IMG/VR virus record: IMGVR_UViG_3300027749_000206
Coordinates: 1 to 42,006 of that record
Length of the DNA stretch: 42,006 bases
Reading direction: 5' to 3' (one strand)
Source: a virus
A model generated the notes under the pieces. It had not been told where the DNA came from. It made no database searches and was given only the letters and a program-made list of their open reading frames with translations. The position numbers and the translations under genes are program-made. Numbering within the stretch: the stretch's first letter is position 1; every line of letters starts with the position of its first letter. Positions 3,357-36,533 of this stretch are shown here, piece by piece.

Positions 3357-3689
3357 ATGAAAACAGCATTATTAGTTCTATTTATTGCATTATCAGTTAA
3401 TTTAAGCGCTCAAGATTCGCAGAAATTCTACAGACTGCATCATTTTAGTGCAGGATTTGTTACAGGTACGGTTACGCAATTCTATTTTAAAAAGCCATTT
3501 GTATATCCGGTATTAATATCAACAGGATTAGGCGTTCTAAAGGAAAGCTATGACGTTTCAAAAGGTGCTAAGTTTTCTGCTGATGATGTTTTGTTTACTG
3601 CTATTGGAGGCGTAGTAGGCTCTTTTATAACATCTAATACGAGAGAGTTGTTTAAGCGTAAAAAGAAGAAACAAGTAATTAAGATATAA
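3357..3689 (+). CDS. Exported YfiM-like protein, 110 aa
   Basis: The N-terminus MKTALLVLFIALSVNLSAQ is a clear Sec signal peptide cleaved near SAQ. The mature part has the pattern HHFSAGFVTG, then a hydrophobic stretch with GLGVLKESYD, then FSADDVLFTAIGGVVG, and a Lys-rich tail (KRKKKKQ). This H..G / G..KE..D / FS..D / G spacing resembles the YfiM/DUF2279 family of small envelope proteins. It probably sits at the inner membrane facing the periplasm. It lies three bases upstream of the secreted nuclease gene, so the two are likely co-expressed. Function unknown. Confidence 0.6.
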   Translation: MKTALLVLFIALSVNLSAQDSQKFYRLHHFSAGFVTGTVTQFYFKKPFVYPVLISTGLGVLKESYDVSKGAKFSADDVLFTAIGGVVGSFITSNTRELFKRKKKKQVIKI

Positions 3690-4319: not shown

Positions 4320-4573
4320 AAACAGCAATGCAAGAATTAATAGATTATTTAGACCCAATTCATAGCGCAATAAAAGATAAGGCTATAGAATTGCTAAAGA
4401 TGGAGAAGGAGCAAAAAAAAGTTGAGATTACCCGTCTGGAGGTAATTAACCATGCAAAAAACGATATGCCTATTGGTCGAATTTTGACTATTTATAAAGA
4501 GTTAGAGCAATTTAATAGCATGGAATTATCTTATCAGGATGGTGGAATGACCCTAAAGATTTTTTTAGATTAA
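4316..4573 (+). CDS. Hypothetical protein, 85 aa
   Basis: It is coupled to the nuclease gene by a 4-base ATGA overlap. The product is helical and Lys/Glu-rich in the middle (LLKMEKEQKKVEITRLEV), with a hydrophobic-beta end (MTLKIFLD). It lacks a signal peptide, so it should be cytoplasmic. It could be a partner of the secreted nuclease (for example an inhibitor protecting the host during synthesis), but only the coupling suggests that. The TAA stop is the first three bases of a 28-bp repeat. Confidence 0.6.
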   Translation: MKTAMQELIDYLDPIHSAIKDKAIELLKMEKEQKKVEITRLEVINHAKNDMPIGRILTIYKELEQFNSMELSYQDGGMTLKIFLD

Positions 4574-5069: not shown

Positions 5070-5297
5070 ATGAAAAAACAAAAAACGTTAGTTTACGGAA
5101 ACTTTTACCATGTGTACACAAGAGAGACGTACCTTGGAATTGCTGAATGCAAACTTATTAACGGAGAAACTAAGTTCTTACAAAGTTTTCCAGATGCTGA
5201 TGGTGATGAAGAGCAAATAGAATGCTCGTTCATTTCAGAATACCATCTTGCTACAGATGAAGAGGTAAAAAAATTTAAAGATTTAATTTGGAATTAA
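5070..5297 (+). CDS. Hypothetical protein, 75 aa
   Basis: The product is predicted beta-rich (TLVYGNFYHVYTRETYLGIAEC, KFLQSFP), then has an acidic loop (DADGDEEQIEC) and a helical end (ATDEEVKKFKDLIWN). No export signal is present. Its last codons overlap the -33 region of the small RNA promoter just downstream. Not recognised. Confidence 0.6.
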   Translation: MKKQKTLVYGNFYHVYTRETYLGIAECKLINGETKFLQSFPDADGDEEQIECSFISEYHLATDEEVKKFKDLIWN

Positions 5298-5316
5298 TAA
5301 ATATTCCATATATTTG
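5287..5316 (+). promoter_or_regulatory. Bacteroidetes-type promoter for the small RNA
   Basis: TTTG at 5287-5290 and TATATTTG at 5309-5316 match the -33 TTTG and -7 TAnnTTTG boxes, with an 18-bp spacer. Transcription would begin around 5320-5325, just before the first hairpin of the downstream RNA. This is the only complete match I noticed on the plus strand. Confidence 0.65.
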
Positions 5317-5320
5317 TCTT

Positions 5321-5426
5321 GTCAATCCGAATTGATAGTCGCAGTATGAATTCGGGTTTGGTTAAACAGAGATATTAAACCCTGTTTTATTAAACCCACA
5401 TAGCTGCGACCTGTGTGGGTTTTTTT
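5321..5426 (+). ncRNA. Compact three-hairpin small RNA with complementary loops
   Basis: Three stems follow the promoter. Stem 1 pairs 5327-5333 with 5349-5355 (7 bp). Stem 2 pairs AAACAG 5364-5369 with CTGTTT 5382-5387. Stem 3 is the terminator, pairing 5392-5400 with 5414-5422 (9 bp, then a T-run). The loop of stem 1 contains GTCGCAG (5338-5344), the exact reverse complement of CTGCGAC (5404-5410) in the loop of stem 3. A 7-bp kissing interaction could therefore fold the RNA back on itself. No ORF is present. Promoter, start, structure and terminator fit a stand-alone ~100-nt RNA. Function unknown; no match to a known family by eye. Confidence 0.65.
5392..5426 (+). terminator. Rho-independent terminator of the small RNA
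   Basis: Nine-bp perfect stem, AAACCCACA (5392-5400) with TGTGGGTTT (5414-5422), 13-base loop, and T-run at 5420-5426. The loop carries the CTGCGAC segment that can pair with the first hairpin. It would also stop read-through from the upstream small genes. Confidence 0.8.
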
Positions 5427-5459
5427 ATTATACTACTTACATACATTAATAAGATTGAT

Positions 5460-5790
5460 ACCGTTTAGAAGTAATCCCTGATAATTACGCACCATCGTAC
5501 AGGATAGAATAACTAAATGGTAGGCGTTCCGAAAGGCGTTATACGTTGGTGGTGCTGAAATAGCAGCATAAATCTGTAGTGAAATTGAATAGTGAGCATG
5601 AGGTGATAATTGGTAATACCGCAGATGAACAGTCCGAGAGGGGAATTATTCCGACCACGAGTTAATAACGAAGCCGAACAGGGCAGGTATATGGTAGCTA
5701 ACCTGCGAATTGAGAGTCTTGGAGTATAACCAGAATTGATACCAAGATAAACTCAGCGAGATTTAAAAATCTTCCTCTGCCTTTATAATA
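5460..5790 (+). ncRNA. Large structured RNA upstream of an HNH gene (possible intron core or element-associated RNA)
   Basis: About 330 bases with no ORF but many helices: GTAAT 5471-5475/ATTAC 5484-5488; GCACCA 5489-5494/TGGTGC 5550-5555; TGCTG 5553-5557/CAGCA 5563-5567 (competing with the last); ATCTGT 5572-5577/GCAGAT 5621-5626; GTC 5632-5634 plus GGAAT 5642-5646/ATTCC 5648-5652 plus GAC 5653-5655; GCAGGT 5683-5688/ACCTGC 5701-5706; a long stem 5711-5727/5739-5755; and AGATT 5759-5763/AATCT 5768-5772. CCGAAAGG at 5529-5536 is a GNRA-capped stem. The base composition is less AT-rich than the flanks. The RNA ends a few bases before the HNH start codon, as in homing introns or HNH-associated RNAs. 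I could not place group I P7 or group II domain V, so the class stays open. Confidence 0.5.
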
Positions 5791-5798
5791 GGATTATT

Positions 5799-6221
5799 AT
5801 GTCTTATCGTAAACAGGGATTTAATATGAGTAGCAATAGGTATAAAAGACTTTTAAATACTAAAGCATGGAGGATATTTGCTGATATTGTAAAGAAAAGA
5901 GATGATTATAAGTGTGTTAGATGTGGTAGTGATAAAAATTTACAAGCTCATCACAAAATATATTATGATTTTAAAATGCCTTGGGAATATAATATAGACT
6001 TTCTTGAAACACTATGTTCTTTATGTCATTTATCAGCACATAGCGAAAAAACAATTAAAGAATTTGAAGTAGATAAAATTACTTTTAAAAAAATGAGAAG
6101 AGAAAACAGAGAAATTAGTAGGTTAAAAAATATAAAACCACCAAAAAATAGAACTTCTGATGAGATATATAAAGATATGTTTGGTGAGTCTAATCACCCA
6201 GAAAATGATGTTCCTTGGTAG
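5799..6221 (+). CDS. HNH homing-type endonuclease, 140 aa
   Basis: A conventional HNH nuclease: CVRCG (two Cys for structural zinc), then AHHKIYY (catalytic HH), then CSLCH with the second CxxC and the last His. It has an N-terminal basic helix (KRLLNTKAWRIFADIVKKRDDYK) and a Lys-rich C-terminal half that may bind DNA. The size fits phage free-standing or intron-borne HNH enzymes, and it is too small for IscB. It may start at ATG 5799 or at the internal ATG nine codons later. It follows a structured RNA directly, and its codons look more AT-rich than its neighbours, both pointing to a mobile unit. The C-terminus ends ENDVPW, an acidic-aromatic tip. Confidence 0.85.
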   Translation: MSYRKQGFNMSSNRYKRLLNTKAWRIFADIVKKRDDYKCVRCGSDKNLQAHHKIYYDFKMPWEYNIDFLETLCSLCHLSAHSEKTIKEFEVDKITFKKMRRENREISRLKNIKPPKNRTSDEIYKDMFGESNHPENDVPW

Positions 6222-36469: not shown

Positions 36470-36477
36470 CAAATATA
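36470..36477 (-). promoter_or_regulatory. -7 promoter box TATATTTG with -33 TTTG for the 307-aa gene
   Basis: It reads TATATTTG on the minus strand, 31 bp before ATG 36439. A TTTG lies 20 bp upstream, at the edge of the capsid terminator T-run, giving the best -33/-7 pair among the late boxes. Confidence 0.65.
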
Positions 36478-36498
36478 TGTATATGCAAAGAATATGCC

Positions 36499-36533
36499 AA
36501 AAAAAAATAACCCCACCAAACGGCAGGGTTATT
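36499..36533 (-). terminator. Rho-independent terminator after the capsid gene
   Basis: AATAACCC 36506-36513 pairs with GGGTTATT 36526-36533 (8 bp, 12-base loop) and is followed on the minus strand by a run of T. It ends the scaffold-capsid transcript. Confidence 0.85.

Follow-up and report, generated by a model that had tools for sequence, protein, structure and literature searches.

Comparison of viral contigs provides exceptionally strong support for a phage RNA family in which two hairpin loops of variable sequence match each other by exact complementarity. The family is new to the Rfam 15 catalogue, and its function is probably control of a replication-associated module, an assignment that we make with moderate confidence. 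The member described here lies in the window, by which we mean the whole stretch of 42,006 nucleotides analyzed, a 42-kb IMG/VR virus record (IMGVR_UViG_3300027749_000206). Among the isolates listed, the nearest relatives of the window terminase large subunit (TerL) are those of Cellulophaga and Flavobacterium phages (25–28% identity), which suggests that the host of the window phage is probably a Flavobacteriia-type bacterium.

The RNA, termed the class-1 module, is approximately 105 nt long and extends on the plus strand from a conserved 5′ GUCAAUCC to a U-run (5321–5429, as delimited by fold, homologues and alignment). It is preceded on the same strand by a Bacteroidota-type promoter pattern at 5287–5316, consisting of TTTG (5287–5290), an 18-nt spacer and TATATTTG (5309–5316). 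The TTTG/TATATTTG pattern occurs in the window at chance level (2 sites versus 2.3 expected); across loci, 33 of 39 modules have its −7 box (TAnnTTTG) 2–5 nt upstream of where the RNA starts, a count that rises to 38 when TTCG is accepted as well. The other promoter-like site in the window lies on the minus strand at 36470–36501 and has CATATATTTG in common with the module promoter. Positions 5322–5429 are predicted to fold at −33.8 kcal/mol into three tandem hairpins, H1, H2 and H3 (z = −4.2; 0 of 200 shuffles). H1 (5324–5358, plus strand), identified by fold and compensatory changes, reads AAUCCGAAUU. AUA (GUCGCAG) UAU. AAUUCGGGUU, with the loop in brackets, and contains a 1x1 mismatch. H2 (5359–5392, plus strand; from the fold) varies in length and competes with H1 and H3 via GGGUU/AACCC. 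H3 (5393–5421, plus strand; fold and covariation) is an intrinsic-terminator stem with 11 bp shown and 12 possible, followed by a run of seven T (5420–5426, plus strand) that is kept in all modules of the alignment. GTCGCAG (5338–5344) and CTGCGAC (5404–5410), both on the plus strand, constitute the whole H1 loop and the whole H3 loop, respectively, and are exact 7-nt reverse complements. No ORF of at least 60 aa lies inside the class-1 module of the window. An earlier note on this DNA had described the promoter pair, the three tandem hairpins, the perfect 7-base loop complement and the absence of an ORF, all of which were borne out; of the 9-bp terminator with T-run that it also described, the T-run stands while the stem is longer, at 11–12 bp.

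Homologues were retrieved from IMG/VR with an H1-stem pattern (22 loci) and with an independent pattern for the downstream RNA (30 loci). The module is readable in 43 loci representing 35 distinct sequences, all from IMG/VR and exclusively from assembled viral contigs, many of them fragments. The two loops are exact complements, 6–8 nt in length, in every one of the 43 loci. Among 32 aligned rows there are 16 loop sequences, with double compensatory changes at all seven of the loop-loop pairs and 57 compensatory cells. The share of loop cells that pair was 98.6%; the corresponding figures were 71.4% after shuffling (0 of 500) and 63% at most after sliding, and the loop covariation score was 0.717, versus 0.201 shuffled and at most 0.18 slid. 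Loop lengths also change together, one subgroup having the 6-nt loops GTAGAG/CTCTAC. In the near relative L003 the loops are AGGAGAG/CTCTCCT, with five of seven bases different and all of the differences compensated; L037 and L019 have a single difference in the flanks, yet in each of the two loops five of the seven positions differ. On a tree built from the rest of the module the loop word, by which we mean the variable loop sequence, changes at least 20 times, a count that is approximate because the tree is weakly resolved. G-U pairs are common in the stems and absent from the loop-loop helix, where pairing is strictly Watson-Crick: among 218 cells there is neither a G-U pair nor a one-sided change. 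This strictness may reflect a requirement of kissing for strict pairs, or a process at the level of DNA that keeps the copies alike. The stems covary as well: across the 32 rows H1 has compensatory changes at columns 11–31, 13–29 and 15–27, with five of its 10 stem pairs invariant, and H3 has an A-U to U-A change at column pair 84–94 (13 rows) together with a conserved U-G pair (23 of 32 rows).

A sequence-blind search for the same architecture (promoter box, a pair of hairpins whose loops are complementary, T-run) gave no matches when run on 840 kb of simulated sequence; in phage DNA (1.15 Mb) it recovered essentially only the module, with one unrelated match. Judged from the alignment, selection on loop pairing is strong and leaves the sequence of the pair free to change. 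The proposal of a phage-made, folded RNA driven from its own promoter is supported, and so is loop complementarity maintained through compensatory change. Loss of both loops and stems among homologues, which the earlier note had said would count against its reading, was not seen, since all 43 loci retain complementary loops and the H1 and H3 stems covary. Its word "intramolecular" goes beyond the data, however, because the covariation fits pairing within or between molecules alike.

At gathering score, Rfam 15 models, including those for GOLLD, ROOL and group I introns, matched neither the window nor 16 loci. Relaxed thresholds again gave no match to GOLLD or ROOL, and the best sub-threshold scores were those of NsiR1 (27 bits, cutoff 39) and the trpB motif (25–30 bits, cutoff 59), none of them credible. 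The module was unmatched among isolate phages, plasmids and bacterial genomes in the searches run, and is absent from the stretches examined of phages with related terminases (Cellulophaga phi13:2, Flavobacterium elemoF and a spring podovirus). Fremin and colleagues reportedly collected over ten thousand candidates for structured viral RNAs, a set that could hold the module motif as an unnamed candidate.

Approximately 10–60 nt after the class-1 module lies a conserved non-coding region of ~230–400 nt, which belongs to one of several unrelated types: A (the window, L003, L016 and L021), B (~30 loci), C, D or E. The type A region of the window (5453–5819, plus strand; ~370 nt) follows the module within ~40 nt, is conserved and aligns with its three counterparts, and window positions 5287–5800 are 77% identical to L003. 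No ORF of at least 60 aa is confined to type A. Its 3′ end is overlapped by a small HNH endonuclease ORF that starts there (5799–6221, plus strand; PF01844, E 2e-4); this ORF is absent from L003, so it is not a fixed partner, and it looks like a later insertion. Covariance models gave no match for type A as a group I intron or other ribozyme. Type A contains the same-sense direct repeat AACAGGG, with an internal copy at 5677–5683 and a 3′-end copy at 5812–5818 (both plus strand), and L016 and L021 have AACGGT at both places. Type B likewise has two same-sense 7-nt copies, one internal and one at the 3′ end, which agree exactly in all 25 distinct sequences and use five words (GGAGTAG, GGAATAG, GGTATAG, GTAATAG and GGACTGT; examples are L018 ~4330–4440, L029, L034 and L037). 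Base pairing is no explanation for identical same-sense repeats in the two types. All type-B loci not cut at a contig end are preceded by the module. A pairing of the 5′ GUCAAUCC with GGAUUGAC beyond the terminator, noted by eye in several loci, proved inconsistent between types. Beside the module, tRNA-like sequences ending GGTTCGAATCCTG..CCTGACTAC occur in L048, on the reverse strand between the module and type B (~990–1160 in module orientation), and in L020, ~250–400 nt past the module; ARAGORN recognized neither.

Genomic context, through slot exchange within one phage group, suggests a connection of the module with replication. In the phage group of the window it occupies a slot flanked by a small zinc-ribbon gene and by gene 6586. 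The same slot holds, in different members, the module with type A, the module with type B, a class-2 leader with a DnaD/replication-initiator-like gene, a class-2 leader with a RepL-like gene, or a RepL-like gene without a detected leader. Class-2 leaders (L002, L004, L013 and L017) are unrelated to class 1 in sequence and have the loops GTACCAT/ATGGTAC or GGCTCAT/ATGAGCC, an H3 stem that is fully compensated between members, a promoter-like sequence upstream, and a T-run. The feature common to the two classes is the loop-loop contact. In L002, L004 and L017 the class-2 leader is directly upstream of the initiator gene; the T-run is followed within a few nt by the ATG of the DnaD/replication-initiator-like gene, and the encoded protein matches PHROG replication-initiation and DnaD-like loader families (E ~1e-10 to 1e-12). 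RepL (PF05732) scores above cutoff in L012, and two relatives have a RepL gene in the slot. The 3′ flank of L016, a class-1 locus, contains a sequence (AGATTACTCGTAACATA) resembling the one at which the DnaD-like initiator gene of L017 ends (3′), as expected after a module swap. Iteron-like repeats (CTCACCAGATGA.. / CTCACCACGTGATAGTACAA) occur upstream of the RepL-like gene in L013 (~3555–3625) and L014 (~2600).

This link to replication does not hold everywhere: in G006, G007 and G008 the module is directly behind TerL and a DnaD-like gene is elsewhere; in one further phage group the module adjoins dNMP-kinase and recombination-type genes (gene identities in both cases were read from the sequences). 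HTH_36, phrog_428 and RepL gave no match in the class-1 records G000, G001, G002, G003, G004, G010 and G011, which are incomplete, and HTH_36/phrog_428 genes are present in three records of the group that has the module behind TerL. GC skew tracks gene orientation and marks no origin at the RNA, and it was dropped as a guide to the replication origin. In Bacteroides and Alistipes phages whose initiators are related, the gene sits within an operon, with no leader gap, and the DnaD-like genes of group (ii) phages have no kissing leader of the module's design upstream.

We tentatively favor, at somewhat short of an even chance, a model that makes the RNA an attenuator-type leader for an exchangeable replication-initiation module, with loop contact at H3 setting readthrough. 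RNA polymerase would start at ~5321 and H1 would fold; the H1 loop, acting in cis or carried in trans by a copy that has terminated, would then pair with the H3 loop and set how often transcription stops at 5426 versus reading through into the replication determinant. Build-up of the short RNA could in this way signal how many phage copies are present, and the loop word, quick to change, would serve as a plasmid-like incompatibility determinant that separates the controls of related phages. Control of termination by the locked state of the loops, also raised in the earlier note, is still viable, since H3 is itself the terminator hairpin. The speed at which the loop word changes speaks against an external target that stays fixed and in favor of self-recognition, whether in cis, between trans copies or in a multimer. 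The choice between cis and trans action, copy-number sensing and specificity driven by the loops are points that we infer.

Plasmids offer the closest logic. In I-complex and IncL/M plasmids the leaders of replication initiators form pseudoknots, exemplified by repZ of ColIb-P9 (according to Asano and Mizobuchi 1998, as cited in PMC10724649), and a few loop bases set incompatibility in IncK1 and IncK2 (PMC10724649). In class 2, the RNA resembles these leaders in its loop-based long-range pairing ahead of a replication initiator, and incompatibility set by a few loop bases is the expected counterpart of a fast-changing loop word. The module differs in being from phage, in carrying both complementary loops as terminal loops of one RNA, in having an intrinsic terminator as its second hairpin, and in leading, in class 1 (the window included), into a non-coding RNA instead of an mRNA. 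An antisense RNA promoter was not found either: an antisense −7 box (CAAAnnTA) is absent within 260 nt in all 39 modules, and classical antisense control RNA is thus not apparent. If the logic of plasmid rep-leaders is shared, the short terminated RNA would, in the absence of such a promoter, be the trans-acting species. RNAI and RNAII of ColE1 interact by 7-nt loop-loop kissing, and pT181 uses transcription attenuation before its replication determinant. The module is like the former in its 7-nt loop kissing and, as proposed, would be like the latter in attenuation before a replication determinant. H3 and the U-run are present in all class-1 modules and non-coding sequence follows, and in class 2 the T-run is followed by ATG. 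Unlike either plasmid system, it shows no reverse promoter box for a countertranscript in the 39 modules, its complementarity lies inside a same-sense transcript, and no sequence relation exists. A bolder version, which we consider rather doubtful, is RNA-based replication control in which freely changing, self-matched loop words regulate an origin module, either in cis or across copies in trans, a structured non-coding RNA replaces the initiator protein, the loop word defines the "incompatibility group" of the phage, and types A–E, of which A and B have covarying same-sense 7-nt repeats, are replication RNAs such as primers.

Pairing between molecules, giving dimers or closed rings as in phi29 pRNA or GOLLD/ROOL and hence a structural RNA, is fairly unlikely in our estimation. 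The pRNA of phi29 is a phage RNA of ~100–120 nt with matched interlocking loops that vary among phages. The module is similar in size and in its matched, phage-specific loops; unlike pRNA, it ends in an intrinsic terminator hairpin, occurs in several genomic contexts and is followed by a second non-coding RNA. Full complementarity of both loops (7-7 or 6-6) suits a multimer, and words that vary yet match would let subunits recognize each other without mixing among the RNAs of different phages. By rough geometry, however, a linker of 27–38 nt suffices for pairing within one molecule, and H3 doubles as the terminator stem. Placement directly downstream of TerL in one phage group is suggestive, but this adjacency is not general, and the class-2 version precedes an initiator gene. 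GOLLD and ROOL, non-coding RNAs encoded by phages, have kissing loops that covary, some of them documented as intermolecular (PMC12286853). The module shares covarying loops with these RNAs, but differs in the far shorter length of its first module and in the lack of an Rfam match.

A free-standing small RNA acting in trans, with loops directed at a host or phage target or with a host protein bound, is improbable. The RNA does have its own promoter and terminator, and strong conservation of the H1 stem, including its five invariant pairs, is what protein binding would yield. The loops, however, differ completely among close relatives and so are unable to match one conserved outside target, and a conserved non-coding RNA or, in class 2, an initiator gene always follows. 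"Stand-alone," the description in the earlier note, is accordingly correct only in part, and the action on a host protein that it suggested is unsupported by this analysis.

No more probable is a signal at the level of DNA, with H1 and H3 as arm-spacer-arm sites of a recombinase or as single-stranded DNA replication hairpins, and with identity of the spacers under selection. Inverted repeats of 11–13 bp around a 7-bp spacer resemble recombinase core sites, the strictly Watson-Crick loop match is what identity between DNA copies would give, and the type A and B regions also carry 7-nt copies required to be identical. Against this, promoter spacing and the U-run are conserved, and the conserved H3 U-G pair is tolerated in RNA but would be a mismatch in DNA. 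All uncut type-B loci, which were found independently of the module, are in a single orientation, which also led us to reject an invertible DNA element.

The least probable reading is a bistable terminator/antiterminator without kissing, in which a nested hairpin (AAUCCG:UGGGUU, the 7 bp and GGGUUUGA:UAUUAAACCC) competes with H1 and H3: RNAalifold picks this fold, and in most class-1 members its energy differs from that of the three-hairpin fold by no more than ~2 kcal/mol, but pairs unique to it lack the double changes seen in H1 and H3, loop length co-varies exactly with the loop boundaries, and in class 2 the three-hairpin fold is better by 7–10 kcal/mol. The near equality of the two class-1 folds, which use the same 7 bp, means that class 1 may be bistable according to the energy model, and that covariation alone is no proof of kissing geometry.

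Loop pairs that combine a strong compensatory signal with free sequence are unusual. They suggest that complementarity itself is all that is recognized, a hallmark of systems that control copy number or tell self from non-self. Should the link to replication be true, the attenuator-type leader would do in phages what RNA copy control does in plasmids, minus the antisense RNA; one would then ask whether, in some Flavobacteriia phages, an RNA takes on the start of replication that an initiator protein performs in their relatives. The natural loop words also constitute ready orthogonal kissing pairs for RNA engineering. One extra loop pair, GTTGCGT/ACGCAAC in L074 (9879–9943, record G010), was seen only by the sequence-blind search.
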